A stretch of DNA of 64,000 nucleotides from Alkalicoccobacillus plakortidis (GTDB lineage: Bacteria; Bacillota; Bacilli; Bacillales; Bacillaceae_D): NCBI RefSeq assembly GCF_023703085.1, contig NZ_JAMQJY010000001.1:372001-436000 (forward strand). The letters run 5' to 3'. Positions 1-63,131 of this stretch are shown in pieces. Made by a program: the position numbers and the translations under genes. The notes under the pieces are model-generated. The model saw only the letters and a list, made by a program, of their open reading frames with translations, had not been told where the DNA came from and searched no databases. Within the stretch, counting starts at the first letter, position 1; each line of letters opens with the position of its first letter.

Positions 1-514
1 CTCGGTGTTTTTGATGACAAACATGTAGGGATCCAATACATAAAAAAAGCAATAAAAAGGCGTGTTACTTCGTTGATTGAAGATGGTGTGGAATGGATCC
101 TCATTAGTGGTCAACCAGGAGTTGAGTTATGGGCAGCAGAATCAGCTTTTGAATTAAAAGAGATGTATCCTGAACTTAAAGTGGCCATTTTACCACCGTT
201 TTTAGAACAGGAAAGCCAGTGGAAAGAAGCAGCGCAGGAGAAGTATCAACAGGTTTTAAGTGAGGCTGACTTTGTCAAACCAATTACGAATCGAGTATAT
301 GATAGTCCAGGCACAATTGCGCTTGAAAAATGATTTTTTAGTTGAGAAATCAGATGCCATGCTTATTTTATATGATCAAGAACAACCAGGAACTCCTAAA
401 TTTTATTTAGAACCAACCTTAAAAAAACAAAACAGTCAGAGTGGCTATATGATATATTATTTAACACCGGAAGATATTGAAGATGCTAGACGAGAAGAAG
501 AAATGGATTGGTAG
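1..514 (+). CDS. ypsA: YpsA family protein (DUF1273), 5' partial, frameshifted
   Basis: The reading frame is open from base 1, so the N-terminus lies outside the window. The protein matches the YpsA/DUF1273 family (SLOG-like Rossmann fold; in B. subtilis it influences cell division). The conserved WILISGQ-GVELWAAE segment is at about codons 30-43. The C-terminal part (LKNDFLVEKSDAMLILYD) is in another frame. The break is at 307-312, where CCAGGC replaces an expected CCAGC; removing one G gives DSPAQLRLKND, which aligns with the family. Directly downstream is gpsB, as in B. subtilis. The product is firm; the frameshift is probably a sequence error. Confidence 0.85.
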
Positions 515-603
515 CAAGTTTTGAAACAAAATTGACTTTTCACAGGACTTTTGAAAAAATAAAAGAGAGACTAGTTAGTTTAGACTAAGCAGGGGTGATA
601 TTG

Positions 604-922
604 ATGAGTAATCAAGAAATTAAACATTCAGCAAAAGAAATTTTGAATAAAGATTTTAAAACAAGTATGAGAGGGTATAACCCGGATGAAGTGGATAAGT
701 TTTTAGATTCCATTATCCAGGATTATGAGCTTTATCAGAAAAAGGTTGAACAGTTAGAGCAGGAAGTACAACAACTCCGAAAAGAAAACAAAAAGCTTCA
801 GGAGCGACCTACTAGACAAGCTCAGGCACCAAGCCCCTTCTACTAACAATACCAACTACGATATTTTGCAACGTTTATCTAACTTGGAGAAAAAAGTTTT
901 TGGAAGTAAAATGTACGAATAA
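604..922 (+). CDS. gpsB: Cell division regulator GpsB, frameshifted
   Basis: GpsB is a small DivIVA-related coiled-coil protein that shuttles penicillin-binding proteins between septum and side wall. The N-terminal lipid-binding-like domain is clear ([20 protein letters not shown], about residues 10-29), followed by [13 protein letters not shown] and a coiled coil rich in E, Q and K. The conserved C-terminal segment ([20 protein letters not shown]) is in another frame and ends at 922. The break is at 829-834 (CCAAGC); reading CCAGC restores [17 protein letters not shown] 604 is preceded by AGGGGTG; TTG 601 is also possible. It sits between ypsA and the RNase H-like gene. The frame break is likely an artefact because the tail is intact and conserved. 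Confidence 0.88.
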
Positions 923-940
923 TTCAGGAGGAATGAAACT

Positions 941-1339
941 TTGATTGAAGTTTATTTTGATGGAGCTAGCGCTGGTAATCCTGGCCCGTCTGGAGCAGGA
1001 GTGTTTATCAACTTCAAAGACGGAACGGTAGAAGAAAATTCAATTACTTTACCACCAATGTCTAATCATGAAGCTGAATATGAGGCCTTTATATGGGCTC
1101 TTAAAAGGTGCACCGAACTAGGCTTTACTCATGTTTCGTTCCGAACGGATTCACAATTGATTGATGATGCAGTTGAAAAACAATTTGTCCGTAACCCTCT
1201 ATATAAACCATACTTGGAGCAAGCTTTGTCTCTGATTAATCAGTTTGATTTATTTTATCTGAAGTGGATACCAAGTAAATCAAATCGAAATGCTGATCGA
1301 CTTGCTAGGTTGGCGATCCCAAAACAAAAAAGAGCGTAA
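941..1339 (+). CDS. RNase HI-like protein
   Basis: A 132-residue protein with the RNase HI fold. The four acidic positions of the family can be assigned: D7 (YFDGASAGNPG), E46 (HEAEYEA), D70 (FRTDSQL) and D119 (RNADRLA), so it may be active on RNA-DNA hybrids or related substrates. It resembles the Bacillus YpdQ/YpeP group. The start is TTG 941, set by AGGAGG at 926-931 with nine bases of spacing; an upstream ATG at 933 stops at once. It follows gpsB by 18 bases and precedes rnpB. Activity is inferred only from the conserved residues. Confidence 0.82.
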   Translation: MIEVYFDGASAGNPGPSGAGVFINFKDGTVEENSITLPPMSNHEAEYEAFIWALKRCTELGFTHVSFRTDSQLIDDAVEKQFVRNPLYKPYLEQALSLINQFDLFYLKWIPSKSNRNADRLARLAIPKQKRA

Positions 1340-1410
1340 GTTGAATGAGTGGTTGCAAGGTGGAGCATATCGAGCTATAATAGATTAGCGCGATCGCGTA
1401 TCAGGTTTAA

Positions 1411-1812
1411 GTTAAGCATTCAGGTGGCCGCTGTGCAGCAATGCATAGAGGAAAGTCCATGCTCGCACGAGCTGAGATGCTCGTAGTGTTCGTGCCTAGC
1501 GAATTCATAAGCTAGGGTAGTTGGGTAACTGACTAACGGCAGGAGAATTGCCTACGTCCAGTAGGATATGGTAAACGCTCCTTGAAAGTGCCACAGTGAC
1601 GGAGTCCATCTGGAAACAGATGGAGTGGAACGAGGTAAACCCCTCGAGCGAGAAACCCAAAAATAGGTAGGGGCATTTTCTGATTTGGAATTGAACAAAA
1701 TCAGAAGGACAGGATTCATTTCCTGTAGATAGATGGTCACCACCAGCGTACGAGGCTCATCACCGCTTGCAGTACAAAGGTACAGAACATGGCTTATCGA
1801 GTGCTTAACGAT
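1411..1812 (+). ncRNA. rnpB: RNase P RNA, class B
   Basis: The catalytic RNA of ribonuclease P, which matures tRNA 5' ends. Blocks typical of the Bacillus class B RNA are present: GAGGAAAGTCCATGCTCGCA near 1449, TGCCTAGCGAA near 1494, GAAAGTGCCACAGTGACG near 1584, GTGGAACG-GGTAAACCCC near 1626, and AGTACAAAGGTACAGAACAT near 1771. The ends are set by an 11-bp P1 helix: 1411-1421 pairs fully with 1799-1809. The gene lies after gpsB, the same relative place as in B. subtilis. Confidence 0.97.
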
Positions 1813-1842
1813 GATTGACTGATTAATTGAATCAATAAATTA

Positions 1843-1867
1843 AAATCCCCAGATGAGGGATTTTTTT
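1843..1867 (+). terminator. Rho-independent terminator of rnpB
   Basis: AAATCCC and GGGATTT form a short stem around a small loop, followed by seven T residues, 30 bases after the RNA 3' end. Confidence 0.8.
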
Positions 1868-1904
1868 GTTTTGTCTGAATCCTTTAGCGCTAACACGCAT
1901 TAAT

Positions 1905-1948
1905 ATGTGTAAATTTTTGTTTACACGTTCTGAAAATTCAATTAACAT
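1905..1948 (+). promoter_or_regulatory. Probable sigma-A promoter with overlapping inverted repeat, ABC importer operon
   Basis: TTTACA (1920-1925), a 17-bp spacer and TAACAT (1943-1948) form a plausible promoter 39 bases before the binding-protein gene. A perfect 7-bp inverted repeat, GTGTAAA-6-TTTACAC (1907-1926), overlaps the -35 box and looks like an operator. No T-box leader was found here. Confidence 0.45.
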
Positions 1949-1986
1949 AAGAACTATGTTTATAGATAAAAAAGGGGGAAATCAAT

Positions 1987-2979
1987 ATGCTTAAGAAATG
2001 GGGATTGTTACTATCAGCTCCTTTGCTGATAGCTGCTTTATCTGCCTGTGGAAATTCAGATGATGAAAATGCGGAAAACGGAGAGGACCCAGAATTCACA
2101 ATTGGTGCAACACAGATTGTTGAACATCCATCTCTTGATGCAGCCTACCAAGGTTTTCAAGATGCTTTAACGGATGCTGGAATCAATGCGGAGTTTTCAT
2201 TTCAATCAGCTCAAGGTGATCCAAATAATACATCAACGATTGCAACAAACTTTGTTTCTGATGGTGTCGATATGATTTTTGCCAACTCAACGCCTAGTGC
2301 AATAAGTGCTTTACAGGCGACTCAAGAGATCCCAATTGTCTTTACTTCTGTTACTGACCCTGTCGAAGCAGGTCTCGTTTCAGCTCTTGACGAGCCAGGT
2401 GATTCAATTACAGGTGTACGTGATCTTCATCCAGAAGCAATTGATGACACAGTTGGGTTTATTAATGAGTATTTCCCGGATTCAACAATAGGGCTAGTGT
2501 ATAATGCCGGAGAATCAAACTCAGTTGTTCAGATTAATGCCATTAAAGAGTCTGTTGAGGGAACCTCATTAACAACAACAGAACGAACAGTTGCTACTTC
2601 AGCGGATGTTCAATCAGCTGCTTTGGCATTAGCAGAGGATGCTGATGTCATCTATCTTGTAACTGATAATACCGTTATCGCAGCTTTAGAGTCCATTGTA
2701 GGAATTTCGAACGATAGAGGAATTCCGTTAATCGCTAGTGATCCTGAGTCACTTGATTCAGGTGCGTTTGCCGCATTTGGTGTTGATTTCCATACATTAG
2801 GATACCAAGCAGGTGAAATAGCTGCAGATATCTTAACTGGTGAAAAATCACCTAGCGATATTCCTGTTGAATCGCCAGCTGAGATTAATTTAGTGATTAA
2901 TCGTGAGGCAGCGGAAGCACAAGGAATTGAATGGAACGAAGCTTGGGACGACGCAGCAGAGACATATGAATCGAAATAA
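1987..2979 (+). CDS. ABC transporter substrate-binding lipoprotein, TrpX/YtrX type
   Basis: A 330-residue lipoprotein of the ABC_sub_bind family (PF04392). The signal peptide ends at a lipobox with Cys21 (ALSAC), followed by an acidic linker. The mature part has the two-lobed pattern of the family (IGATQIVEHPSLDAAYQGF; AIDDTVGFINEYFP; GRIPLIASDPES-like segments). Relatives in streptococci are regulated by tryptophan T-boxes and are proposed to import tryptophan; others have unknown ligands. Here the ligand cannot be read from the sequence. It is first in a three-gene operon with a permease and an ATPase and has the ribosome binding site AAAGGGGGAAA. Confidence 0.85.
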   Translation: MLKKWGLLLSAPLLIAALSACGNSDDENAENGEDPEFTIGATQIVEHPSLDAAYQGFQDALTDAGINAEFSFQSAQGDPNNTSTIATNFVSDGVDMIFANSTPSAISALQATQEIPIVFTSVTDPVEAGLVSALDEPGDSITGVRDLHPEAIDDTVGFINEYFPDSTIGLVYNAGESNSVVQINAIKESVEGTSLTTTERTVATSADVQSAALALAEDADVIYLVTDNTVIAALESIVGISNDRGIPLIASDPESLDSGAFAAFGVDFHTLGYQAGEIAADILTGEKSPSDIPVESPAEINLVINREAAEAQGIEWNEAWDDAAETYESK

Positions 2980-2992
2980 CATCTAACTCGAG

Positions 2993-3025
2993 ACCGGCCT
3001 ACCGCTTCGGAGGGTCGGTTTTCTT
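2993..3025 (+). terminator. Intercistronic hairpin with T-rich tail
   Basis: ACCGGCCT pairs with AGGGTCGGT (including G-T pairs) and is followed by TTTTCTTTT. It lies between the binding-protein and permease genes, so it may partly end or stabilise the transcript and give more binding protein than permease. Confidence 0.5.
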
Positions 3026-3041
3026 TTATAAAGGAGAAGTG

Positions 3042-4043
3042 ATGAACATGCTTGCGATTTATGGAGCATTAGAACTTGGTTTTATTTATGCCATTATGGC
3101 TTTAGGCGTGTATCTAACGTTTCGGATATTAGATTTTCCTGATTTAACAGTAGACGGGAGCTTTGTGACAGGTGCTGCTGTTGCTGCGTTAGCTATTGTT
3201 AATGGTGTAGATCCATTTATCGCAACGATATTAGCTGTTTTAGCTGGTTTTGTAGCTGGCTGTATCACAGGTTTATTACATACAAAAGGTAATATTAATC
3301 CGCTACTTGCAGGTATCCTGATGATGATCGCCTTGTATTCAATTAATCTTCGTATCATGGGTATGCCACGAATTTCTCTACTTAACGAACCGACGATCTT
3401 CGCATGGGTTCGAGAAGGGTGGAATTCGCTTGGTATAGACGACGCACTTCGTTCTTTTTTCCAAGGTCTCGGGATGACAACTCTGCCTTCAACTTGGTCA
3501 CTTCTTATCGTGACAATTATGGTCGTATTGGTGATTAAAATCATCACAGATTATTTCTTAAAAACAGAGGTTGGTCTTGCCATTCGAGCAACTGGTGATA
3601 ATAAACGAATGATCCGTAGCTTCTCAGCCAATACCGATTTTTTAATCATACTGGCACTTGGCTTATCTAATGGACTTGTTGCCCTTTCCGGTTCTCTTAT
3701 TGCACAGCAAGGCGGATTTGCTGATGCAGGCATGGGGATAGGGATGATCATCATTGGGCTCGCTTCAGTCATAATTGGTGAAGCTTTGTTTGGAACAAAA
3801 TCGATTTTCCGAACAACTCTTGCAGTTATATTCGGGGCTGTTATTTATCGAATTGTTGTTGCCCTAGCTCTTAAAGTAGATTTTCTAGAAGCAGGCGATA
3901 TGAAGCTCATCACCGCAGTATTAGTAATTGTTGCGCTTATCTCGCCCAAAGTCATTGAGAAGCAACGCGAAAGAAGAAAACGTAGGCAGAAGCATCGACT
4001 CGCAAAAGGGCAAGGAGGTGGAGAGAATGCTGAATCTGCATGA
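3042..4043 (+). CDS. ABC transporter permease, TrpY/YtrY type
   Basis: A 333-residue membrane protein with about eight hydrophobic segments, of the branched-chain amino acid/ribose permease class (BPD_transp_2) paired with ABC_sub_bind proteins. Characteristic segments are LTVDGSFVTGAAVAA near residue 33 and EVGLAIRATGDNKRMIRSF near 180. The basic C-terminus (KQRERRKRRQKHR) is cytoplasmic by the positive-inside rule. ATG 3042 follows AAGGAG by five bases; ATG 3048 is an alternative. It overlaps the ATPase gene by 17 bases, so the two are translationally coupled. Confidence 0.85.
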   Translation: MNMLAIYGALELGFIYAIMALGVYLTFRILDFPDLTVDGSFVTGAAVAALAIVNGVDPFIATILAVLAGFVAGCITGLLHTKGNINPLLAGILMMIALYSINLRIMGMPRISLLNEPTIFAWVREGWNSLGIDDALRSFFQGLGMTTLPSTWSLLIVTIMVVLVIKIITDYFLKTEVGLAIRATGDNKRMIRSFSANTDFLIILALGLSNGLVALSGSLIAQQGGFADAGMGIGMIIIGLASVIIGEALFGTKSIFRTTLAVIFGAVIYRIVVALALKVDFLEAGDMKLITAVLVIVALISPKVIEKQRERRKRRQKHRLAKGQGGGENAESA

Positions 4044-4821
4044 AGTCGCTCTAACATTTAATGAAGGTACTGCAGACGAGAAAAAGGCACTTCAAACCAT
4101 CGAATTAAATTTGGAAAAAGGCGACTTTGTCACCATAATTGGTAGTAATGGCGCTGGCAAATCCACGTTAATGAATGTGATTTCAGGGGCCTTATTACCT
4201 GATCAAGGTGATATTCAAATTGATGGTAAAACCGTCATTAAGCATCAGGAATATAAACGATCTGCTTTTATCGGCAGGGTGTTTCAAGATCCAATGGTTG
4301 GTACAGCTCCATCGATGACCATTGAAGAAAACCTGGCTATTGCTTATTCTCGAAATAAAAAACGGACGTTAAAGCTTGGTGTAAACAAACAACGTAGAGA
4401 CTTTTTTAAGCAATCACTCGAATCGCTTCATCTTGGTTTAGAGAATCGTTTTACAGCCAAAGTTGGCCTTTTATCCGGTGGGGAGAGACAAGCCTTATCA
4501 CTACTTATGGCGACTTTTACTGAACCAAAGATATTATTACTCGATGAACACACCGCGGCTCTCGATCCATCACGTGCTGAATTAATTACAAACTTAACGA
4601 GAGATATTGTTTCACGACACAAACTAACAACCCTAATGGTTACTCACAATATGCAACAAGCGTTAGACCTAGGGAATCGTTTGATTATGATGGATCAAGG
4701 TCAGATAATCTTGGATATCCCAGAATCGAAAAAGCAGGATCTAACAGTAGAAGGGTTATTACAAGAATTTAAACGAATCCGTGGTTCACAAATGGAAAGT
4801 GATCGTGCTGTTTTAGGATAA
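4027..4821 (+). CDS. ABC transporter ATP-binding protein, TrpZ/YtrZ type
   Basis: A 264-residue ABC ATPase. Walker A is GSNGAGKST at about residue 41, the signature is LSGGERQALSL, Walker B is ILLLDEHTAALDP (His follows the catalytic Glu, as is usual in this subgroup), and the switch His is in MVTHNM. ATG 4027 is preceded by AAGGAGGTGGAGAG, inside the end of the permease gene. It energises import with the two genes upstream. A strong terminator follows, so the operon has three genes. Confidence 0.9.
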   Translation: MLNLHEVALTFNEGTADEKKALQTIELNLEKGDFVTIIGSNGAGKSTLMNVISGALLPDQGDIQIDGKTVIKHQEYKRSAFIGRVFQDPMVGTAPSMTIEENLAIAYSRNKKRTLKLGVNKQRRDFFKQSLESLHLGLENRFTAKVGLLSGGERQALSLLMATFTEPKILLLDEHTAALDPSRAELITNLTRDIVSRHKLTTLMVTHNMQQALDLGNRLIMMDQGQIILDIPESKKQDLTVEGLLQEFKRIRGSQMESDRAVLG

Positions 4822-4832
4822 TGTTAAAATGA

Positions 4833-4872
4833 ACTGCCTCCATTATCGTGCTGATAATGGAGGCAGTTTTTT
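4833..4872 (+). terminator. Rho-independent terminator of ABC importer operon
   Basis: A 14-bp perfect stem, ACTGCCTCCATTAT with ATAATGGAGGCAGT, around a 7-base loop, followed by six T residues. Confidence 0.92.
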
Positions 4873-4916
4873 CTGCATTCTAGCAGGCGTTACGCTTTAA
4901 AGCGCTAAAATTATAC

Positions 4917-4969
4917 TTGTTTTTGTTGAACGATCACTATATAATTACACCTAATGAGAAGACAGGTGT
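4917..4969 (+). promoter_or_regulatory. Candidate sstT promoter and adjacent hairpin
   Basis: TTGTTT (4917-4922), a 17-bp spacer and TATAAT (4940-4945) suggest a sigma-A promoter. ACACCT/AGGTGT (4947-4969) followed by CTTTTT is a small hairpin right at the expected start of transcription. A second TATAAT lies at 5007-5012 without a well-placed -35. Confidence 0.4.
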
Positions 4970-6397: not shown

Positions 6398-7541
6398 ATG
6401 GATAAGGTTACGCTTGGTTGCTACAGCCACGATGGGTTTAGAAGCAATCGTAGCGAGAGAGATTAAAGACTTAGGATATGAAGATATAAAAGTAGAAAAT
6501 GGAAAGGTGACTTTTACCGCAGGAATTGATGCCATTCCACGTGCAAACCTTTGGTTACGTACGTCTGATCGTGTGAAACTGTTAGTTGGCGAATTTAAAG
6601 CTTTTACATTTGATGAACTTTTTGAAAAAACAAAAGCATTACCATGGGCGGATCTTATTCCTGCAAATGCCGAATTTCCGGTAATTGGTCGCTCGGTAAA
6701 ATCCACATTATTTAGTGTGCCTGATTGCCAAGCTATTGTGAAAAAAGCGGTTGTAGAAAGCTTAAAAAAGAAACATAACATTAGCTGGTTTGACGAAGAT
6801 GGTCCCTTTTATCGAATTGAAGTGGCGCTTCATAAAGATGTGGCGACTTTAACGATTGACACAAGTGGAGAAGGACTTCACAAACGTGGCTATAGATACC
6901 TACACAACGAAGCTCCACTTAAAGAAACACTTGCTGCAGCACTTATTAAATTAACAACATGGAATCCAGATCGCCCATTTGCTGACCCATTCTGTGGTTC
7001 AGGTACTCTTCCAATTGAAGCGGCAATGATCGGACAAAATCTAGCACCAGGTTTTAACCGCAACTTTGCTTCAGATGAGTGGGATTGGGTTGGAAACGAT
7101 GTATGGGATAAGGCTAGACAAGAAGTAGAGGATCTAGCTCGTTATGATCAGAAGCTTGATATTCTTGGATCTGATATTGATCACAGAAGCGTAGAGCTAG
7201 CGCAAAACAACGCAAAAGAGGCGGGTTTTGCTGATCTAATCACATTTAAACAAATGCAGGTTCGTGACTTTAGCCACAAAGGAAGCTATGGCATCATTAT
7301 TGGAAACCCACCTTATGGGGAACGAATTGGCGAACGAGATGAAGTTGAATTTATGTATAAGCAAATGGGTGAGGCATTACGTAAACTTGATACATGGTCT
7401 GTTTACATGCTCACATCCAACGAGAACTTTGAAGAGCTATATGGCAAAAAAGCATCCAAAAAACGCAAATTATACAACGGGAATCTTAAAACCGATTATT
7501 ATCAGTATTTTGGTCCGAGGCCTCCTAGAAAAGCGGATTGA
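6398..7541 (+). CDS. rlmL: 23S rRNA (guanine-N2) methyltransferase RlmL/YpsC, frameshifted at the N-terminus
   Basis: This THUMP-domain methyltransferase modifies a guanine of 23S rRNA (m2G2445 in E. coli). The THUMP region is at the N-terminus. The SAM-binding motif is ADPFCGSGTLPIEAA near residue 195, and the catalytic motif is NPPYGER near 305. ATG 6398 after AAGGGAG gives MDKVTL, but the continuing frame starts at VATATMGLEAIVA. The break is GCTTGG at 6412-6417; reading GCTGG gives MDKVTLVATATMG, as in B. subtilis YpsC. Without the correction the first usable codon would be TTG 6414, which lacks a ribosome binding site. Confidence 0.9.
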
Positions 7542-15855: not shown

Positions 15856-17386
15856 GTCATTTGCAGGATTTTTATCAGTTATTTTTACAAAGACAAGATA
15901 TGCTGTGGTCTTCTTTATGGGAGCATCTACAGTTATCGATTATCTCCTTATTAATTGCTGTTTTTATTGCCGTTCCATTAGGCATCGTTTTATCGAGAAA
16001 AGATCGAATCGCCGAATTTATCATTGGTATTGCGGCTGTTCTTCAAACTATTCCAAGTCTAGCCTTACTCGGATTTATGATTTTATTTGTAGGCATAGGT
16101 ACAACACCTGCAATTATTGCCTTAACTGCTTATGCCCTTTTGCCTATTTTACGGAATACATATACGGGTATAAAAGAAGTAAATCCGGCTATTCGCGAAG
16201 CAGCTCGTGGAATGGGTATGAACTCATATCGTAGTCTTATTAAGGTAGAGCTACCGATTGCCTTACCAACCGTTATGGCCGGTATTAGAACGTCAATGGT
16301 GTTAATTGTAGGTACGGCAACACTAGCTGCTTTAATTGGTGCTGGTGGTCTTGGAGACCTCATTATGACTGGTATTCAACGTTCGAATAACGAGTATATC
16401 TTACTTGGTGCGATCCAGCCGCTCTTTTGGCTCTATTTTTTGATGGGATATTACGTGTTACCGAACGATTAAGCAAGCGTAGCTCGTATAAACCAGTATT
16501 AGCTGTCATTGGTTTAGCTTTAGCTATTATTTTTGTCCCAATGCTTGCTATGCGTGGTTCAATTGGACCAGATCTTGTAGTTGGAGGAAAAATGGGTGCT
16601 GAACCTGAGATAGTTGGCAATATGTATAAGCATTTAATAGAAGACGAAACGGATCTAACTGTTGAGGTACAAGGAAATCTAGGAGCAACGGATTTTGTCT
16701 TTAATGCCTTACGTGTAGGAGATATTGATGTGTATCCTGAATTTTCAGGAACCATTGTTGGTGAGCTTTTAGCACTGGATGACTTCAGTTATGACCCTGA
16801 TGAAGCTTATGAACAAGCAAGGGAAGGAATTTATGATGAGTATCAATTCCGCTTCCTTGAACCGATGCTATACAATAATACGTACGCAATTGCTGTACCA
16901 AGAGATAAAGCCGAGGAAAATAACATTGAAACGATCTCTGATTTAGAATCAGTAAAAGATGACTGGAGATTTGGTTTTTCCTTCGAATTTATTGATCGCC
17001 AAGATGGGTATGCAGGATTTCCGGACCGGTATGGATTTGAGCTTGCTAACGTTTCTTCTCTCGATGTCTCTGCAGGCATTCGAGCGATTGAAAGTGAAAA
17101 CATTGAGGGAACAGATGTGTTCTCAACAGATCCACAAATTGTCGAAAATGATCTCGTAGTGCTAGAAGATGATGAAAGTTTATTTCCACCTTATCAAGGA
17201 GCTCCTTTGATTCGAGAAGAAACATTGGAGCAATATCCGGAGCTTGAAGATATCCTGAATCAGCTTGCAGGAAAAATTTCTGAGGAAGATATTCAAGAAT
17301 TAAATTATTTGGTCGATATTGAGGATGAAAACCCATCGGATGTAGCAAGAGATTATCTGGTTGAAATCGGATTGCTAACTGAATAA
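15852..17386 (+). CDS. Fused permease/substrate-binding protein of compatible-solute ABC transporter (OpuFB-like), frameshifted
   Basis: The N-terminal part (15852 to about 16470) is a BPD_transp_1 permease with the EAARGMGMNSYRSLIKVELP coupling loop. The C-terminal part (about 16550-17386) is an OpuAC-type binding domain starting at GPDLVVGGKMGAEPEIVG. The frames differ. At 16413-16420 ATCCAGCC stands where ATCCCAGCC is expected; adding one C gives GAIPAALLALFFDGILRVTERL, the normal link between permease and last helix. The product is thus one polypeptide, as in the described OpuF transporters, not separate permease and lipoprotein. Likely ligands are glycine betaine and related osmolytes (by family). 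Confidence 0.85.
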
Positions 17387-22593: not shown

Positions 22594-23080
22594 ATGCCAT
22601 TAACAGATAAACAAATTCAAACCTTAAAACAGGATCTGCTCGATCTGAAAAAGAACCTTGAAGGGAATGAAGGATTCACAACGGATTTTAGTGAATCAAC
22701 TGGAGAAGTTTCAAACGGAGTCGATAATCATATGGCAGACCAGGCCGCTCAATATGAAGACCGAATGAAAGAACAAACGTTCCAAGCGTGCAGACCAAGA
22801 AAAACTTCAAGAGGTGGAGGAAGCTCTGCAGCGAATAGAAGATGGAACATATGGATTATGTGTGGATACGGGAGAAGAAATTCCATACGAAAGATTAGAA
22901 ATTGTTCCTTATACAAAACGCACAATTGAAGCTCAGGAAAAAGTGGATCAAGAAGGCAATGATCAAGACGCAGATCAACAGTTTGCTGAGTCGATGGAAA
23001 ATGTTGCTGACAAAGATACATTAAGAGAAGATACATTGACCACACAAAAGCTAGATAAAGAACAGGACGCCTATAAATAA
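22594..23080 (+). CDS. yteA: DksA/TraR-type general stress protein, YteA-like, frameshifted
   Basis: It combines an N-terminal helical part (PLTDKQIQTLKQDLLDLKKN... DNHMADQAAQYEDRMKEQTF) and, in another frame, the DksA-type C-terminal part (LQEVEEALQRIEDGTYGLCV... IPYERLEIVPYTKRTI). The break is at 22782-22787 (CCAAGC); CCAGC gives FQRADQEKLQEVEEAL, as in the family. Only the first of the four zinc-finger cysteines remains (YGLC), as in Bacillus YteA proteins, so it probably does not bind zinc. The C-terminus is acidic and low in complexity. The ribosome binding site is AAAGGAGG. Confidence 0.8.
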
Positions 23081-24394: not shown

Positions 24395-25212
24395 TTAATT
24401 TTGGTCAGAAAATTCTATTTCTAGTCGTTCTCTTTCAATATTAAATGGCAAAATCAAAATTTCAACTCGACGATTTTGCTGTCGACCTTCCTCTGTTTCA
24501 TTCGATACAATCGGTTTGTATTCACCATGTCCGGCTACAATAAACTGATTTGGTTTCAATCGCTCGTTTTCTAAGAAATAGCCTAGCACATTCTCTGCAC
24601 GTGAAATACTCAATGTCCAGTTCGATTGAAACTGAGGTGTATTAATTGGTCGATCATCTGTATGTCCAGATATCTGGATATAACGAGGTGGATCTGTTGC
24701 AAGCATATCAGAGATTTCGTACACAATTTCTTGAGCATCTGTTTTTAACTCATCACTCCCTGAATCAAACAGAATGTTATCGTTGATCGTAATAAGCAGG
24801 CCATCCGTACCTATCTCAGTAGTTAAGCGGTCACTTAATCCTTGTTCTTCAATATAACGATTTAATTCTTTCTGGAGCTCCCACAAATCCTCAGATGGCC
24901 CGTCTTGATTTGTTCCATCTGAATCGTTTTGTTGCTCGTCTTCTTCTTGATCCTCTGAATCTTCAGGAACAGCTGCAGAATCAGGGGAGAGGTACCTTCG
25001 CCTTCTAGTGAATCCGAGTACTCTAATATACTTGTTCCACCTAAGGCTTCATTTAAAGCTGATTTTAACGATTCATAACGTGTATTATCTACTTGTCCCA
25101 TAGCGAATAAGATAATGAAGAGTGCCAATAATAATGTTAACATGTCAGCGTAAGGTAATAGCCAACTTTCATCTACATGTTCTTCGTCATGCTTTTTTCT
25201 TCTAGCTGACAT
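24395..25212 (-). CDS. motB: Flagellar motor protein MotB, frameshifted
   Basis: The stator subunit with an N-terminal transmembrane helix, HVDESWLLPYADMLTLLLAL, carrying the ion-binding Asp23, and a C-terminal OmpA-like peptidoglycan-binding domain (FDSGSDELKTDAQEIV; IQISGHTDDRPI; RRVEILILP). The two parts are in different frames joined in an acidic linker near 24982-24987 (a run of four C on the coding strand). If the original read CCAGCTG here, the linker would be SPADSAAVPEDSED. ATG 25212 overlaps the motA stop by 11 bases. Ion specificity (proton or sodium) is not decided. Confidence 0.87.
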
Positions 25213-30235: not shown

Positions 30236-32498
30236 TTAATCCTGCATTAGATATCTCCCTGTAATCGATAGCTTGTTTTGAATAATCTCTAAAGGTGTAC
30301 CCTCAAATACAACTTGTCCACCTCTGCTGCCTCCGTCTGGTCCCATATCAATGATCCAATCAGCTTGACTGATGACCTCTAGGTTATGCTCTATGACAAT
30401 GACGGTATTTCCTGCATCAACAAGTCGATTCAGAATAGCCATAAGATGCTCAATGTCCGACATATGCAGACCTGTTGTTGGTTCGTCTAAGACATAGATG
30501 CTGCCTTTTTTATGGAGTTCACTTGCGAGTTTAATTCGTTGGCATTCTCCTCCAGACAGCGTGCTGAGTGGTTGACCAAGTGTAATGTAGTTCAGTCCAA
30601 CGTCACTCATGGCCTGCAGTTTTCGTACCACCTCTTTTATCTGGAAAAATTGCAAGGCTTGTTCAACTGTCATGCTTAATACATCAGCAATGGATTTTCC
30701 GTCTAGCTTATACTCAAGCACTTCTTCCTTAAATCGTTTCCCTTCGCACACTTCACATGGCAATTTTACACTGTCTAGAAATGCAAGATCCGTATAAACC
30801 ACACCTTGTCCTTGGCAATTCTCACAAGCTCCTTTGGAATTAAAGCTAAATAACCCTGGACTCACTTTGTTTGCAGAAGCAAAAGCCTTACGAACCTGAT
30901 CCATGATACCAGTGTATGTAGCGGGATTGGAGCGTGTTGAGCCACCTATGGCTGATTGGTCAATGACAATGGTATCTGGATTCTGATCCAAGAAAACGTT
31001 GTTGATTAATGAACTTTTGCCTGATCCAAGCAACGCCAGTTACGACGGTAAGAACACCTGTCGGAATATCTACACTCACATGTTGTAAATTATGAAGATT
31101 TGCATCTGTAACCGACAGTTTACTTACCGGCTGCCTACTCTCCTGCTTTAGTAGTATTGGTCGTTTCATATGTGTACCCGTTAACGTATCTGCTTCCAAC
31201 AATCCTTGGAAGCTTCCCTCATACATAATTGAACCACCACGACTACCAGCATGTGGACCTACATCTACAATATGATCTGCTACCTTTATAACATCCGGAT
31301 CATGTTCAACAACAATAACTGTATTACCCTTATCACGTAGCTTCTCAAGTAACTCATTTAATCGATGCACATCACGGGAATGTAGGCCAACACTTGGTTC
31401 ATCAAAGATATAGGTAACGTCTACAAGACTACCACTCAAATGCTTAACTATTTTAACTCTTTGAGACTCACCGCCTGACAACGTATCCGTCTCACGATTT
31501 AGTGTTAAATAATCAAGACCGATATCCTCTAAATGCTGTAACCGCCCGATTAACGAGGAAATGACAGGAGTGGCAACCGGATCATCAATCTCTTTTACAA
31601 TCCGAATGAGCTTGCCAACCTCCATAGATGACATTTCTGCAATGTTTAAATCATTAATCTTACAGTTAAGCGCGGCTTGACTTAGTCTAGCTCCCTTACA
31701 GCTTGGGCATGGACCTTCTGATATGAAAGGAGCAACAGCTTTTTGTGTACGTTCAGACATGGTTTTCAAATCACGCTTTATATATTTATTCGTAAACTTC
31801 TCTACGACGCCTTCCACGGTGATGTTCATGGCTTTACCGGCGAAATCCATCTTAATTTTCTGGGCTTTTCCGTATAACAGCTGCTCCAAATCTCCTTCTG
31901 AGTAATCACTCAGCTTTTTACTTGAATCAAAGAACCCTGTTTGTATAAGGATGTTCCACTCCCACTTATCTACACCATAATCAGGCAACAAAATCGCTCC
32001 ATCATTTAAGGACTTTGACAGATCAACCACTTTTCTTAGGTCTACTCCTAATTTGCGACCGATTCCATTACATTCGACGCACATGCCTTTGGGATCATTA
32101 AATGAAAACATATTTGCTTGCCCAATGTGAGGCTCTCCCACTCTAGAAAAAAGCAAGCGCATAATAGGCGAAATATCGGTGATTGTGCCCATTGTCGAAT
32201 GAGAACCTCCACCCAAGCGTTTTTGATCAACAATGACAGACATGCTCAAGTTCTCAATGGCATCGGCATCTGGCTGTGGTACACGAGGTAGAAATGTACG
32301 CACAAACATGCTGAAGTTTTCATTTAGTAAACGTGTGGATTCCGCAGCAATCGTATCAAAAACAATGGAAGACTTCCCGGAACCAGAAACACCGGTAAAA
32401 ATGGTGATCTTTCGCTTAGGGATTTGTAACGACACATTATTTAAATTGTTTTCCCTTGCTCCAGAAATAGATATGTATTCTTGAGTTGGTTTAGTCAT
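30236..32498 (-). CDS. UvrA-like ABC protein (excinuclease A paralogue, drug-resistance type), frameshifted
   Basis: A roughly 753-residue double-ABC protein shorter than UvrA (about 950), as in the UvrA-like paralogues linked to resistance to DNA-binding drugs (DrrC type). The first ATPase has FTGVSGSGKSSIVFDT, TLSGGESQRVKIVKHL and IFDEPSVGLH; the second has GSGKSSLINN, TLSGGECQRIKLASEL and [10 protein letters not shown]. Zinc-type CxxC pairs are present (CVECNG, CPSCKG, CENCQG). The frames break at 31026-31031 (GCTTGG on the coding strand); GCTGG restores VVTGVAGSGKSSLINN. Start at 32498 (MTKPTQEYIS), nine bases after AAGG; ATG 32504 is too close to the site. Confidence 0.85.
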
Positions 32499-33750: not shown

Positions 33751-36073
<2,323 letters not shown>

Positions 36074-37390: not shown

Positions 37391-37965
37391 CATACGCCTC
37401 CTCTTCTACTTTGTAGTCACCTTGAAGCATTCCATATACAATACAGTCTTTGTATTGATGTTTTGCATTACGTATCATGTGCCTGATGATCCCTTCTTGC
37501 TGCATGCCTGCTTTGGTCATGACTTTTCCAGAGGCAGGATTGTCTGTATTATGAGCGGCGCAGATCTTATGAACCCTCATCTGTTGAAACCCAAACTCAA
37601 TCACCGCTTTTAAAGCTTCTGTTGCAAAACCGTTGTTCCACCAGTTGTATCCAAAAGAATAACTAACGTGACAATTTTCGGTGGCTTCTTCAAAATCATA
37701 TAGATCAATTTCTCCGATTAACTCATTTGTAGCTTTTAAAACAATGGCCCAATAACAAAAACGATTGCTCTCATATTCGCTTATTATCTTATGTAAACGC
37801 GAGATCGTTTGTTTAATATCAACATGAGCTTGGGCTGATACGTTGATCACTTACTCGTTCGTCTGACAGCCAGTGATTAAAAGCATCAAACACATCGTCC
37901 ATTGTAAATTTTCTAAGCAGAAGTCTTTCCGTTTCTAGTTGAGGCGTTCCGTTAAATTGAATCAT
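37353..37965 (-). CDS. GNAT family N-acetyltransferase (RimJ/RimL type), frameshifted
   Basis: A GNAT enzyme of the ribosomal-protein-alanine acetyltransferase type. The N-terminal part (MIQFNGTPQLETERLLLRKF from ATG 37965, with GGAGG upstream) is followed after a frame break by the acetyl-CoA-binding core (GYNWWNNGFATEALKAVIEF) and IRAHNTDNPAS-like segment. The break is GCTTGG at 37828-37833 on the plus strand; GCTGG gives VSDQRISPAHVDIKQTI. The target amine is unknown. Its end overlaps the SRPBCC gene start. Confidence 0.82.
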
Positions 37966-38586: not shown

Positions 38587-39418
38587 TTATTTCTTATTTC
38601 GATATAAGTACATGGTTAATGGAGCAAAAATAACTAAAAAGATAGCTGAAGCTAAAAGCACCCATCCTACTTCTGCGCCTGTTACGGTTCCATACATACA
38701 GCCTCTAACAGCCGTTACTAACAAGGAAATAGGATTAATATCAACAAAACCTTGTAGTATATTAGGTAATGTCTCCGGATCAACAAATACATTACTGACA
38801 AATGTTAATGGAAACAACACCATCATACTCACCATCATTAGTGATTTTTCTGAGCGCATGATGATACCAAGTGTCGTCCAGATCCAGGAAAGACTGAAAC
38901 AGAAGATTAAAATAAGTCCCAAAGCAGCTAGAACTCCAATCAATCCTCCCTCTGGTCTAAAGCCCAAGCAATAATCCTAATAAAATCATGATTGTTGATG
39001 CCATCAAATATCTGACCGCATCGACAAGTAGAGCTCCTACCAATGCTGAAGGTAACCAAATAGGTAACGTTCTAAAGCGGTCAAAGACGCCTTTACGGAT
39101 ATCATTATTTAAATCTACGCCTGTGTACATGGTAATCTGTGAAACAGTCATGACTAAGATACCTGGTAATAAGAATTGTAAGTAATCCGCAGTTGATCCG
39201 GCAATGGCTCCACCGAATAAATACGTAAACATTAACAAAAAGATGATCGGGAACATCGTTACATCGAACAATTGTTCTGGTACGTGTTTTATTCGTAATA
39301 ATGCTCTGGATGAGAAAGTTAAAGATGAGGATAACGCACTCGGATGAGGTGGTTTGACACTGGATGCGATGGCATCATGAAGGCGTTGATCTACGTCCTT
39401 TGTGGCGTTTTGACTCAT
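38587..39418 (-). CDS. ABC-2 type transporter permease (DrrB-like), frameshifted
   Basis: A permease of about 277 residues with six hydrophobic segments, of the ABC-2 drug/lipid exporter type. It has the [20 protein letters not shown] entry, [20 protein letters not shown] and a C-terminal [21 protein letters not shown] loop. The frames break at 38964-38969 (CCAAGC on the plus strand); CCAGC gives [11 protein letters not shown] across the join. It overlaps the ATPase gene by four bases (ATGA). It works with the ATPase upstream in exporting a drug or lipid-like compound. Confidence 0.87.
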
Positions 39419-53099: not shown

Positions 53100-54129
53100 T
53101 TATAATTTAAAGGTATACATTGATTGATCTTCTTTCATTTTTATAGTCAGCTTGCTTTTTGTACCTTCCACAAGCTCAAATAATTGCTCAATATGGTATA
53201 CACCTGATTTCATGTTATTTTCATACGTAATATGAGCAATGGATGCAGCAACCTTTGCGGTGATATTTGATTGATTGTGTCCGTTAGTTAATTGATCGCT
53301 CAATATGGCTCGTTGACGAATAAGCATCCACTTTAATCGCAAACTGATCCGACCCGATATTTAATCTCTCAATTAGTGACACAAGACGATTGCGGAGTTT
53401 TTTGTTTTTTAAACATCTTGATAGTTTTAGAATCCCGATTAATGCAGCGATAGTAGTAATAAATGTTGAATCAAAACAAAGTCTTGTTGTCACACTGGGA
53501 ATAGACAGTGTATGTCGCAAGGTATATTGATCTGAAAAAGGAAATTCATAAACATTGCGATTTCCTACTGGTTCATTGAAATCAATTTTTTTACGTTTAT
53601 TAAAGGAATTGACCATCTTTACTAATGTCCAATCAATGGCAGCAGGTCCATGTTTCTCTCCAACTCCAAGCAATATTGAAATATCTACTTCCTTGACATC
53701 ACTGCAGTCTTGTAATGCTTGTTGTACGAGTAAGTTAGTTAATCCTGGAGCGAGCCCCACACTTACTATAGCAGTACCGGGTAATGATTGATTTTTTAGT
53801 TCCATCACTTGTTTCAGAAAATCAGAATTCGCTGCAATATCAATATAGTAAATACCTGCTTTTAAGCACATTTCAACAAATATGGTTGATTCTAAATCAA
53901 GACACATCACAACAATCTTTGTTTCAGATAACCAATCCGGCTCGATATGGGAATGTACATCATAAACAAGTGGTTGTACTTGGTTTGCCGTCTCCTCTGA
54001 AAATTGTTCTGCCTTCCGCTTATTTCGGCCAGCAGCATAAACTTTATTAAGATAAAAACGAACAAGTTGTTGGCAAATACTTCGTCCAACCTTTCCATAC
54101 CCTCCTACAACAACAATTTTATCTTTCAT
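53100..54129 (-). CDS. Saccharopine dehydrogenase-like NAD(P)-binding protein, frameshifted
   Basis: About 342 residues. The N-terminal Rossmann motif is VVGGYGKVGRSICQQL (GxGxxG-type), followed by the Sacchrp_dh_NADP domain (GIYYIDIAANSDFLKQVM; VSVGLAPGLTNLLVQQAL). The C-terminal part (NGHNQSNITAKVAASIAHI) is in another frame. The break is near 53320-53325 (coding strand GCTTATT); GCTGGTATT would give KVDAGIRQRAILSD. The substrate is unknown. It overlaps a defective methyltransferase gene in the same direction (ATGA), so the pair was once an operon. Confidence 0.75.
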
Positions 54130-57055: not shown

Positions 57056-57085
57056 TCATAATTATTCGTTTATTAAATGACTCTT

Positions 57086-58288: not shown

Positions 58289-58293
58289 CAAGT

Positions 58294-58328
58294 AGAGCTT
58301 GCCAAAGGAATTCCCGTGGCAAGCTTTT
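58294..58328. terminator. Bidirectional terminator
   Basis: AGAGCTTGCCA with TGGCAAGCTTTT; it lies between the small membrane protein gene and the GH2 gene. Confidence 0.75.
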
Positions 58329-58331
58329 ACC

Positions 58332-60014
58332 TTACTCACTAAAATACTTTTTCACTACACTAGCTGCAAGCTTAGGTCGTCTAAATTCATCAAATATGCC
58401 CTTACTATTTTTTGTTCCAGCCCGACTCATTAACCACCCTGTATCTTCTACAACTTTACAATCAGCAAATTGCCAAATATACATACCAGAGATGAAGGAT
58501 CGCTTCGTATAAGCTCGAAGGTTCTCTTCTATGATAATCGCCTGTCTTTCCTCCGTACCCCGTACTGCATTAGGATGACGTAGACCGTAATACCCGTCTC
58601 CGCCAAACTCACTCATAATAATCGGCTTACCACCTCCACCAAGTTCTTCTGCCCAGATTCTTGCTTGATCAACCAGTTCTCCTGGATCTTCATCTGTATA
58701 CCATAATGGATAAAGATTAAAAGAAATAATATCCGCAAGATCAAAACAAATATCGTGTTCCCGGTGATGTGTAGCATATGTCACTGGTCGTGATGAGTCC
58801 AACTCTTTAATTTGTTCAAGTTGTTCTTTATACATCACTTTGCCTTCTTGTGTATTACTCGCACATTCATTTAGAATGGCCCAGATTAAGATACTTGGAT
58901 GATTAACATGATTCTGCACCATTTCCTCGTTACAATCCATACATTGCTTTTGGAATAATGGGTCACTCATTTGATCAAGCACTAGCCCTCTTGCGTGATT
59001 TTCCTCCCATACAGCAATTCCTCTCTCGTCACATAGGTCTAGGAATCGCTCATCATTTGGATAATGACTGGTCCGAACAGAATTAGCTCCAGTTTCAATA
59101 AGGAGTTCAAGGTCTTGAACTAATAACTGATAAGGAAAAGATGCTCCAACTAATGGATGGTCTTCGTGTCGGTTATACCCTTTTAGTATAATATCTTGGC
59201 CATTTAATTGTATGCGGCCATTCTCTGTTGTGACCGTTCTGAAGCCAACACGTTCGATTAGGTCATCAACTGGAGTCGTTTGATGATCTGTATAAACATG
59301 TAAAGTTAATAAATAAAGAGACGGATTATTTAACTCCCACGGTATTAACTGTTCGAACATCTTGTTTATTTGCACATCTACTGTTTCGTTCGCTTGGATT
59401 TCGATAAAGCCAAACGAAATAGGTGTATCAGCTAATTGGCCCTTTATTTCTACCTTTTGTATAGTATCATGATGATTCGTTACCCATACTTTAATATCCG
59501 CTCCCCAGACGCCATCCTTTTGAAAAGATGTGCAGGACAAACGATCAATACATACATCAGATATGTATTCGATGGAAGTAGGACGAATGATACCACCATA
59601 TGTGTAATAATCATTGGCTATATGAAGCTTAGATTTCTCTGAAAACGTATTGTCTACAATCACAACAAGTTCATGCTCTCCTTTTTCAACATCTTTTATA
59701 TATGTAGAAAAGGGTGTATATGCATTATAATGATGAGCTACATGCATACCATTCCAATAAACGTCTGCCGTATGACTCACGCCTTTAAAATTTAATTTAA
59801 TCGACGTATCTTTGCTCACATCTACTTTGCGCCTATAGGCAGCTTTTCCTCGATATGTTCGAAAGTCAGGGTGAAGTTCCAGGCAAGCTGGTACGGGCAT
59901 ACGATATTCGTATCGTTCGCATACTGAATCACCCTCATTGATCGGTTGAAAATCCCAGTCACCTTCTAACTCATACACGTCCCGGATCTTGTTTGTTTCA
60001 AATAATCTAATCAT
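58332..60014 (-). CDS. Glycoside hydrolase family 2 enzyme (beta-glucuronidase/beta-galactosidase-like)
   Basis: A 560-residue GH2 protein: sugar-binding domain (YRGKAAYRRKVDVS), immunoglobulin-like domain and TIM barrel. The acid/base is E383 (ILNECASN) and the nucleophile is E469 (IIMSEFGGDG). The RTSHYPNDERFLDLCDERGI segment is typical of beta-glucuronidase/galactosidase subgroups. No signal peptide, so it acts on imported sugars. It starts 20 bases after the fucosidase, so they form an operon. The exact sugar (galactose, glucuronate) is not decided. Confidence 0.87.
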   Translation of the reverse strand: MIRLFETNKIRDVYELEGDWDFQPINEGDSVCERYEYRMPVPACLELHPDFRTYRGKAAYRRKVDVSKDTSIKLNFKGVSHTADVYWNGMHVAHHYNAYTPFSTYIKDVEKGEHELVVIVDNTFSEKSKLHIANDYYTYGGIIRPTSIEYISDVCIDRLSCTSFQKDGVWGADIKVWVTNHHDTIQKVEIKGQLADTPISFGFIEIQANETVDVQINKMFEQLIPWELNNPSLYLLTLHVYTDHQTTPVDDLIERVGFRTVTTENGRIQLNGQDIILKGYNRHEDHPLVGASFPYQLLVQDLELLIETGANSVRTSHYPNDERFLDLCDERGIAVWEENHARGLVLDQMSDPLFQKQCMDCNEEMVQNHVNHPSILIWAILNECASNTQEGKVMYKEQLEQIKELDSSRPVTYATHHREHDICFDLADIISFNLYPLWYTDEDPGELVDQARIWAEELGGGGKPIIMSEFGGDGYYGLRHPNAVRGTEERQAIIIEENLRAYTKRSFISGMYIWQFADCKVVEDTGWLMSRAGTKNSKGIFDEFRRPKLAASVVKKYFSE

Positions 60015-60034
60015 TAACTTCCTCCTTCATTAGA

Positions 60035-61502
60035 CTAATCAAGTAATATCTTTATCACAACAGGCATATCACTTTGTACTGTATGTGTTTGGACAATCAA
60101 ACCTTGCTCTGTACGCTTCCATTCTGGTTGCTCAGCAAATCCTAGTAAAGACACTTCCTTAATAATGCCATGAAAATGAGGTAACTTTGACGCATCCTTC
60201 TCTGCAAGCGAAGTCATACACACTTCTCCACTTTTAGGGTATTGCAGGACTGTCGCAAATAGGTAAGAACCATTTACTGTAAAACGAATATCTTCTGGAG
60301 TGAACACCTTTGTTTCGTTATCTGTGAATTGTCCTTCTATAATCTCGGTTGGTCCTTCCCCAGATTTTCTCCATACTTTCGTGTCATATATAGCCTCACC
60401 ATTTACCTTCAACCAGTCACCAATCTCAAGCAAAATGGCACGATCTTCATCTGGAATGGTTCCATCAGCTTTTGGTCCAACGTTTAGTAATAATGAACCA
60501 TTTTTACTGACGATATCAACAAGGTCTGAGATAATCTCTTTAGCTGTTTTATACTCATTATTTTCTGTATAACACCAGGAGTTTTTTGCTACCGCTGAAT
60601 CCGTTTGCCAGAAGTATGGTTTCTGTTCAGCAAATTGTCCTCTTTCAATATCAAGAACTGCAGTCCCAAACATAAAGGCATCATGTTTGTAGTTAATCGC
60701 AACCTCGATTCCCCACTCAAGAGCACGATTATAATAATAAGCAGCAAATTTCTTTAGATATGGTTTAACAGCATGATGTTGAATCCACCAGTCAAAATAC
60801 ATAATCCGTGGTTGATATAGATCCACAATTTCACATGTGCGTACAAGCCAATCCTCTAGAAATTCTTTTGATGGGGCTTGGGCTAAATAAATCTTGATGG
60901 TCTGGCTCTGGCATTGCTGCCCAATAAAAATCTCCTTCCACAAGTGGTTCTTTAATATCACTATCAAATTCTTTTCCGTGCCCCATGAAAAACCAATGCT
61001 CCATTCGATGAGAAGATGCACAAAAAGCAATCTCTCGTTTGGCCAATGACTCACCTAATTCTCCAAGTACATCTCGTTTTGGACCCATTTCATATGCATT
61101 AAATGGTGACACCTCACTTTTATACATCTGAAATCCATCATGATGCTCTGCAACCGGCATGACATACCGTGCACCTGCATCTTCAAACAACTGAGCCCAT
61201 TCTTCTGGATTAAAATATTCAGCCCTGAATTTTGGAATAAAGTCCTTATATCCAAATTCTTTATGCTCACCATACGTTTTAAGATGATGTTCGTATTCTT
61301 TTGATCCTTGAATATACATATTACGCGAGTACCATTCACTTCCGAATGCCGGAACAGAGTAAACACCCCAATGAATAAAGATGCCGAACTTTGCTCCTTG
61401 GTACCAATCCGGTACCCTATATTCTGATAAAGAGCTCCAATGATCTTTGAATCTCCCTTCTTTTATTACTTGATTAATAGTTTCTAGATAAGCCTCTTTC
61501 AT
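60035..61502 (-). CDS. Alpha-L-fucosidase (GH29), frameshifted
   Basis: A GH29 enzyme of about 488 residues without signal peptide. N-terminal segments are WYQGAKFGIFIHWGVYSVPA and YVMPVAEHHDGFQMYKSEVS; the nucleophile Asp lies in IMYFDWWIQH; the C-terminal region has KNGSLLLNVGPKADGTI. Frames break at 60876-60881 (GCTTGG on the plus strand); GCTGG gives HQDLFSPAPSKEFLEDWLV, the normal continuous sequence. It releases L-fucose inside the cell for the fucose operon 15 kb away. A cre site lies 44 bases upstream. Confidence 0.9.
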
Positions 61503-61545
61503 AAGTGCCTCCTCATTAAATGTGTTGTTCTTATCTTAAGCTCAT

Positions 61546-61561
61546 TTGTAAGCGTTATCAA
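61546..61561 (-). promoter_or_regulatory. Catabolite-responsive element (cre) upstream of fucosidase
   Basis: TTGTAAGCGTTATCAA (plus strand) fits WTGNAANCGNWNNCAW at every defined position, 44 bases upstream of the start codon of the fucosidase-GH2 operon. CcpA repression is expected. Confidence 0.72.
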
Positions 61562-61570
61562 TATCATTTC

Positions 61571-61609
61571 AAAAAAAATCACTGATCCATTTTAAGTTCG
61601 AATCAGTGA
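61571..61609 (-). terminator. Rho-independent terminator of the desaturase gene
   Basis: Minus strand TCACTGAT and ATCAGTGA stem followed by eight T residues, just after the desaturase stop at 61625. Confidence 0.88.
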
Positions 61610-61624
61610 GCATGAATTATTTAC

Positions 61625-63131
61625 TTACCCTGTATAACGACCTGAATGCAGTTCATCTTCAAGAATGAAGTCGGCAGTCAGTTGTCCTGACAGTGTGACC
61701 ATCGGAACCCCTCCACCTGGGTGAGTTGAACCTCCCACAAAATAAAGATTAGAAAGCACCTGACTTCGGCTTGGGATTTTAAAGCCTCCATTTGTTTTCC
61801 GATCTGCTGCAACACCGTAGATTGAGCCACCATTAGATCCGTATAGTGTATTAAGATCATTTGGCGTGAATACATATTCAAATTCAATATGATCACGTAT
61901 TTTGGATAAACCATTACGCTCAAGCTTGCTAAGAATAGTTTCACGATAGGTGTCTTTATACATAGCCCAGTCCTCTCCATCTTTTAATGGGGGAACATGA
62001 GTAAGTATAAAATGATTTTCTGCTCCAACCGGTGCTTGCAGCGGATCAGATTTAGAGGATATCCCTACATACACAGTTGGATCATCAGCCGGCCGCTTTT
62101 CCTCAAAGATTTGTTTAAATTCTAATTGCGGATCCTTAGAGAAAAAGAAATTGTGATGAGCAAGTTGCGGATATGTTCGGTTTATACCTAGAAGTAACAC
62201 TAAACCAGAAACACTCGGTTCATAGTTGCTCAGCTTTTTAACTTCTTGTTTTGCTTTTGGTGCTTTAGTAAGCAGTTTTTCATAAGTCGGTATAACCTCA
62301 AGATTTGAAACGATGATATCCGCGTTCAACATCTCTCCGCTCGCTAGTTGAACTGCTTTTGCTTGTCCATCTGACTCTATGATTTGATCCACTCTAGCAT
62401 TAGTACAAATATCTACTTCAAGCTCATTCAACACTCGTTCCATAGCTCGAATGATATTATACATGCCACCCTCAACATAATGAACGCCAAGACCAAATTG
62501 AACGTAAGCAAGTTGTGATAAGACAGCTTGGTGCCTGATAAGGAGATGAGCCTACATACATCACTAAAAAATCAAGAAGTTGCTGTAAATGAGGATCCCT
62601 TATATACTTTTTTGTAGCTTGGTTCATACTTTTCATTGGGTCCATTGCAAGCAATTCTTTAAAGCTATGCAAGGTACGCAAGTCCTTTAATCCAGCTAAG
62701 CTTTTTTGATAGAAGCTTTTGGTACATAGCTCATAAATTTGACTACTATAATGTAGATAATCAAGAAACCCAGACTTATCCTCTGGTGAAATTCGATCAA
62801 TTTCAGCTAGCATATCCGGTAAATCACCTTTAAGATCAATGGATACACCATCCTCGAAAAACGTTCGCCATTGAGGTTCAATTCGCTTGATCGTCAGATA
62901 ATCAGAGAGTTTACGTCCTGCACGTGTAAACAATTGTTCCAATGTCCATGGCATCGTCAAAATAGATGGACCTGTATCAAACGAATAACCAGCACCACTT
63001 CGGATATTACATTTTCCACCAATTCGTTCATTGGCCTCTAGGACTTGAACCTGATAACCTTCTGCTGCAAGACTAATTGCTGAAGATAACCCACCAATTC
63101 CGCCACCAATTACAATTACTTTCTTCTTCAC
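61625..63131 (-). CDS. Phytoene desaturase family FAD protein (CrtN/CrtI-like), frameshifted
   Basis: A carotenoid-type desaturase/oxidase of about 500 residues. The N-terminal FAD-binding motif is VIGGGIGGLSSAISLAAEGY with the VLEANERIGGKC segment, and the C-terminal signature is YFVGGSTHPGGGVPMVTLSGQ. Frames break at 62526-62531 (GCTTGG on the plus strand); GCTGG gives APAVLSQLAYVQFGLGVHY. It could make or oxidise C30 carotenoids (as CrtN/CrtP in other bacilli) but CrtM-type genes are not in the window. It heads a group with the methyltransferase-like gene upstream. Confidence 0.88.

Follow-up and report, generated by a model that had tools for sequence, protein, structure and literature searches.

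In the stretch analysed here (the window, 64,000 nucleotides of Alkalicoccobacillus plakortidis, an alkaliphilic member of the Bacillaceae, G000:C1:372001-436000), genes are split by single-base frame changes at the word CCAGC/GCTGG. Our analysis indicates that these frame breaks are almost certainly errors in the published consensus and not in the DNA of the cell, and that a modified base at CCAGC/GCTGG is very probably what causes this motif-bound error. The class of error is already known, and the frameshifts are not real as a feature of the genes.

The first-pass annotation, made on the window, had noticed that frameshifts concentrate at the CCAGC family. We surveyed the first 536 kb of the same contig (C1:1-536000) of the source assembly (4,366,190 bases, 9 contigs) by frameshift-aware protein-to-DNA alignment, using as references the proteins of two congeners, G002 and G003, to which 412 kb of the sample aligned; in syntenic stretches, the mean DNA identity is 72-79%. 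Breaks seen with a single reference and clusters of mixed sign were excluded from the main count, and subtraction of 5 and of 3 opposite-strand duplicates from 107 two-reference same-sign clusters left 99 distinct breaks backed by both references. An extra base at CCAAGC/GCTTGG accounted for 63 of the 99, against a chance fraction of about 0.025 per break (binomial p ~6e-75), and 76 had CCAAGC, CCAGC or CCAGGC within 18 bases. The errors thus concentrate at one short motif, within the window and beyond it. An equal share of breaks at unrelated motifs, the test set beforehand, was not observed, with 23 of the 99 lacking a CCAGC-family word. The 36 breaks outside the CCAAGC class comprised four gains of one base with CCAGGC, nine breaks with CCAGC, six with CAGC, eight losses of one base beside a homopolymer run (5-7 equal bases close by) without a motif word, and nine with neither. 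When G002 and G003 were treated alike, each with the other congener and the G000 proteins as references, we found six and five breaks, respectively, and none of either set (0/6 and 0/5) lay at these words.

A test that needs no reference gave the same picture. Open reading frames (ORFs) switched frame at 32 of 353 CCAAGC sites, compared with no more than 3 sites for any of eight control hexamers; for CCAGC, the figure was 6 of 508. The neighbouring words ACAAGC, GCAAGC and TCAAGC showed no excess of frame switches in this test, which speaks against a basecaller that is simply biased in the context of CCAGC and needs no modified base. Such a bias would fit the losses beside homopolymers, which point to read errors of the usual kind in this assembly as well, and the modified base is itself putative. 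However, if so common a 5-mer were generally misread, this ought to be widely known, although no search was made that excludes it, and the published 5-mer hotspot that we found is, in the portion of the paper available, a methylation motif (PMC6591954). We consider context bias improbable.

The 63 breaks at CCAAGC/GCTTGG fell in both orientations on the best-scoring strand, 29 in the CCAAGC sense (codon phases 20, 1 and 8) and 34 in the GCTTGG sense (18, 11 and 5), so that each sense includes sites in all three phases. The breaks are flanked on either side by conserved protein sequence, which would be compatible with programmed translational frameshifting or RNA editing that reads through them at the motif. 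Yet the presence of both orientations and all codon phases argues against translational recoding, and we give read-through of this kind virtually no credence. Real insertions, in a mutator or a decaying genome, are a further alternative: the breaks stand in the deposited sequence, and a consensus alone cannot discriminate. The genes hit make real mutation very hard to believe, however. Ten reference proteins of broken genes were chosen, nine of them named, a selection that covers part of the broken genes; the genes include those for threonine ammonia-lyase (IlvA), chorismate synthase (AroC), SigF, phosphogluconate dehydrogenase (Gnd), glutamate synthase and KatG.

Ribosomal RNA (rRNA) genes bear on both of these alternatives. 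In seven aligned copies of the 23S gene (an eighth, in two pieces, L186 and L187, was excluded), all 4 variable columns fell inside the 37 CCAGC/GCTGG columns of ~2,925, with an extra T in two and a lost G in two. In the 16S gene, 6 of 12 variable columns lay inside the 32 motif columns of ~1,552, and a CGAACGCTGGCGGC site, which we take to be universally conserved, was altered in four of eight copies, by substitution in three and by insertion in one. Untranslated rRNA is therefore altered too, contrary to recoding or editing, and otherwise near-identical rRNA copies that differ at motif sites also speak against real mutation. The 16S alleles (L171-L178) differ among themselves at CCAGC sites, and a single copy taken for taxonomy would bring the errors along.

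Substitutions point to the same word. We tallied 86,192 codons at which both references agree, with 4,131 singletons in G000. The top-ranked enriched single-base context was CCAGC to CCAAC (30 versus 2.2 expected), followed by CCAGC to CAAGC (20 versus 2.0). CCAGC is the sole word behind these two contexts, a further point against context bias, and the occurrence of substitutions and losses at it is likewise at odds with recoding or editing. The extra A, the lost base, the extra G and the substitutions are one word misread in several ways. In the protein-changing phase, GCTGG to GTTGG was found at 5 of 73 sites in G000 versus 1/76 and 0/95 in the controls, and in the mostly silent phase at 7/17 versus 9/21 and 2/11. 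Although the counts are small, an excess in the protein-changing rather than the mostly silent phase is the reverse of what mutation under selection would give; being indifferent to selection, it is error-like and does not fit real mutations. Deamination of 5-methylcytosine (m5C) was considered as the source of CCAGC to CCAAC and was rejected, as the mostly silent phase was without excess (small counts).

Motif counts were also compared with those of relatives. The window holds 60 copies of CCAAGC versus 22.8 expected, a number that 0 of 100 shuffles reached, and 61 copies of CCAGC versus 68.2 expected; the CCAGC copies at 2875 and 20534 and the CCAAGC at 32213 that had been pointed out before are present in these counts. 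Genome-wide, with congener sizes rounded, CCAAGC is enriched in G000 (728/Mb versus 507-544/Mb in four congeners) and TCCAGC is depleted (362/Mb versus 522-531/Mb), while CCAGC reaches 948/Mb in G000 versus 1,370 and 1,459/Mb in stretches of two congeners. From this shortfall, we estimate that roughly 30% to one third of CCAGC copies are altered in some way. Sites with a false extra base number 75 where the sample was covered, next to 443 intact CCAGC (~14%), and by extrapolation there would be 670-790 of them genome-wide. Forward and reverse counts gave similar ratios for CCAAGC (1756:1422) and TCCAGC (875:706), which gives no hint of a strand preference.

The motif-specific read error that had been put forward for the window is thus supported by the breaks in both orientations and all phases, the rRNA changes, the substitutions and losses at CCAGC and the clean congeners. 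CCAGC/GCTGG is miswritten in many copies, most visibly with an extra A or T (CCAAGC/GCTTGG), while other copies have lost a base, gained a G or undergone a substitution that preserves length. In our working model, the assembly would have been built from long reads of nanopore type that were not effectively polished with short reads; we infer this type of data because motif errors together with losses beside homopolymers match the published pattern. Misreading would follow from the modification of a base in CCAGC by the living cell. The least certain step of the model is that the modification would be m5C, placed on both strands of the asymmetric CCAGC/GCTGG by a tandem pair of methyltransferases, M1 and M2.

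A search for a methyltransferase with a CCAGC-like target, also proposed in the first-pass annotation, yielded this pair as a candidate, with CCAGC as its presumed target. G000 has four m5C methyltransferase matches, two of which are in tandem at C1:2593278-2595615, as adjacent same-strand ORFs matching PF00145 at 2.2e-54 and 6.8e-70. An asymmetric m5C target needs one enzyme per strand, which tandem pairs can supply, and M1/M2 (C1 ~2,593,000-2,596,000) may for this reason be the writer of the CCAGC modification, an assignment that we hold to be possible. Taken further, and still more tentatively, the error word could be the epigenetic footprint of an m5C restriction-modification system that targets the asymmetric CCAGC/GCTGG, with M1/M2 as writer. 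The pair lies in a defence-like island resembling a restriction-modification system, which adjoins what is presumably an rlmH-like gene. Its 232-amino-acid protein has no Pfam match, the AAA matches of its AAA-like gene are below the Pfam cut-offs, and the ~1.3 kb from M2 to the 232-amino-acid gene contains no listed ORF of at least 70 amino acids.

At E 1e-3, M1 was without a match in G002, G003 and G004. The tandem is also found in G181, G291, G401 and the Lactococcus lactis plasmid p275D, with identities of 60-73% for M1 and 56-67% for M2. In G181, AAA-like and DUF2357 genes adjoin it too; on p275D (L211), its neighbour is annotated as a PLD-domain restriction endonuclease, and matches to HNH, AAA and DUF2357 are absent. 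This gene content suggests that restriction partners may have been exchanged around a fixed methyltransferase pair. We considered whether p275D points to a shared target. In M1, the presumed target-recognition part is well conserved (28/40 and 35/40 in two blocks); in M2, the corresponding part lacks such conservation (12/40, 11/40 and 20/40 over three blocks), and we drew no such conclusion. Two M1 homologues, L213 (G291:C1:984746-985861; 68%) and L214 (G372:C9:44357-45442; 62%), each have two stop codons within the match. Another m5C match in G000, at C1:1647716-1648231 (L196:9514-10264), covers only positions 1-169 of 324, in a 224-amino-acid frame that is overlapped by an ORF in a different frame.

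The same artefact could have a different writer, either a phage-type m5C enzyme or an N6-adenine methyltransferase like ModD1, which we take to be a Type III enzyme with a PF01555 domain. This alternative overlaps the reading that we prefer and is a realistic possibility. The errors are centred on the A of CCAGC, G000 has two m5C genes besides the tandem, and ModD1 acts at CCAGC, according to the announcement as far as it was available (PMC13248682). On the other side, PF01555 (N6_N4_Mtase) had 0 matches in G000 at E 1e-3, a profile that matches 11 of 14 control genomes, in a search of adenine methyltransferase families that covered PF01555, PF02384 and PF07669; this absence led us to rule against a Type III methyltransferase as the writer. 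PF02384 had a single isolated match, in a 363-amino-acid open frame, and PF07669 had two matches below cut-off, one of them in the rlmL-like gene.

Several observations weigh against a modified CCAGC with M1/M2 as its writer. The evidence comes from the consensus sequence, and both the platform and the modification at CCAGC are presumed. In the congener control, the use of G000 proteins as one of the two references reduced its power. In G001, where the CCAAGC density is normal, M1 has a homologue (42%; the search of the congeners was for M1), and the two other m5C methyltransferase genes of G000, with their phage-like surroundings, are alternative writers. The excess of frame switches at CCAAGC is absent in G181, G291 and G401 (0/168, 1/64 and 0/46; 100-200 kb each). 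Without their platform, this absence is uninformative, and they may have a different target. Among 5-mers identical in both references, CCAGC was changed at a fraction of 0.53 in G000 versus 0.53 and 0.60 in the controls, a comparison that excludes insertions and in which divergence is large (44-58% of 5-mers differ). An extended motif was tried and rejected, the flanks of altered and intact sites being weakly different (nominal p 0.001-0.05 at -3, -1 and +1, uncorrected); these weak differences leave the correct reading of most CCAGC sites without an explanation.

With about one third of CCAGC altered, annotation of this assembly would report hundreds of false pseudogenes as well as wrong rRNA alleles. 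Completeness is 96.9 in G000 versus 99 in four congeners, and this lower value may share the same cause. The frameshifts are almost certainly artefactual, and the most that they could offer is a pointer to an enzyme that marks DNA. As such a pointer, the error word hints at the methylome of the strain and makes a methyltransferase target testable. If M1/M2 should indeed be the writer, methyltransferase specificities could be mined from the error motifs of public assemblies with no need for reads; the tandem pair itself occurs in further Bacilli and on p275D as well.

Turning to the individual genes of the window, seven of the 14 breaks listed in the first-pass annotation were placed at the same position by the proteins of both congeners, and several of the others have lesser or other support (Table 1). 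For the break near 6412 in the rlmL-like gene, both congeners lend support solely through a reading of the opposite strand, and it is outside the strict set of 63. ABC_tran pieces in both ORFs of the UvrA-like gene, and an Acetyltransf_3 match that begins at model position 34 in the GNAT gene, are consistent with a frame break without proving it. A dehydrogenase gene has a gain of one base at 53289, seen with a single reference and ~30 bases off the listed place. In a further gene, which is absent from the earlier list, both references place a loss of one base at 24984, close to a CTCTCCCC run.

Table 1. Frame breaks at CCAGC-family words in the window (window coordinates) and the candidate island of G000. 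The names ypsA-like, gpsB-like, rlmL-like, OpuFB-like, YteA-like and ABC permease are those of the first-pass annotation.
Feature	Position	Strand	Break or content	Support
ypsA-like	307..312	+	+1 at CCAGGC, ~309	both congener proteins
gpsB-like	829..834	+	+1 at CCAAGC, ~831	both congener proteins
rlmL-like	6412..6417	+	+1 at GCTTGG	one congener protein in sense
OpuFB-like	16413..16420	+	-1 at CCAGC, ~16412	both congener proteins
YteA-like	22782..22787	+	+1 at CCAAGC, ~22785	both congener proteins
UvrA-like	31026..31031	-	CCAAGC on + strand, suspected break	ABC_tran pieces in two ORFs
katG-like	35017..35022	+	+1 at CCAAGC, ~35016	both congener proteins; reference is catalase/peroxidase HPI
GNAT gene	37828..37833	-	CCAAGC on - strand, suspected break	Acetyltransf_3 match
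ABC permease	38964..38969	-	+1 at CCAAGC on + strand, ~38959-38968	both congener proteins
alpha-L-fucosidase	60876..60881	-	GCTTGG on + strand	Pfam Alpha_L_fucos, 6-166 in one frame and 185-345 in another
desaturase/amine-oxidase-like	62526..62531	-	+1 at GCTTGG on + strand, ~62528	both congener proteins and domain match
restriction-modification-like island	G000:C1:2587875-2597107 (L195:3875-13107)		HNH, M1, M2, 232-amino-acid protein, AAA-like, DUF2357-PDDEXK_7	

Among the papers on CCAGC/GCTGG methyltransferases, judged by title and the start of the abstract, solely the announcement of ModD1 was relevant. In what was available of it, ModD1 of Neisseria meningitidis regulates via methylation of 5'-CCAGC-3' (PMC13248682), the same 5-base word as here, while G000 differs in being without a PF01555 domain match. 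The organisation of the island recalls LlaJI, described in the accessible part of its paper as an asymmetric restriction-modification system with two m5C methyltransferases, McrBC-like restriction genes and the target GACGC (PMC1459862). In gene content, which is the basis of this likeness rather than protein comparison, both combine tandem m5C methyltransferases with restriction-type neighbours, which in G000 are a putative AAA ATPase gene and a putative PD-(D/E)XK gene; they differ in the HNH gene that also adjoins the pair in G000 and in the GACGC target of LlaJI.

The errors themselves resemble cases already in print. Literature searches, which do not prove absence from print, returned no description of CCAGC as a motif of such sequencing errors. 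In the portions available of the following papers, modifications for which the basecaller was untrained gave many systematic errors that dropped sharply after whole-genome amplification (PMC10687267), and ambiguous positions in Kit 14 data followed motifs that are partly strain-specific (PMC11610573). The strains of the former study are alike in their systematic errors from modifications foreign to the basecaller and differ in that mismatches, not insertions or deletions, were in excess. In Klebsiella, as far as the available part of that study goes, about 70% of nanopore consensus errors under default models lay in the Dcm motifs CCAGG/CCTGG, followed by homopolymers (PMC6591954). Compared with these Dcm-motif errors, the motif studied here is asymmetric, the main break-causing error is one extra A or T, and both platform and modification are deduced; the two cases are alike in a 5-base motif that takes a large share of the errors, under models without its methylation, with homopolymers next.

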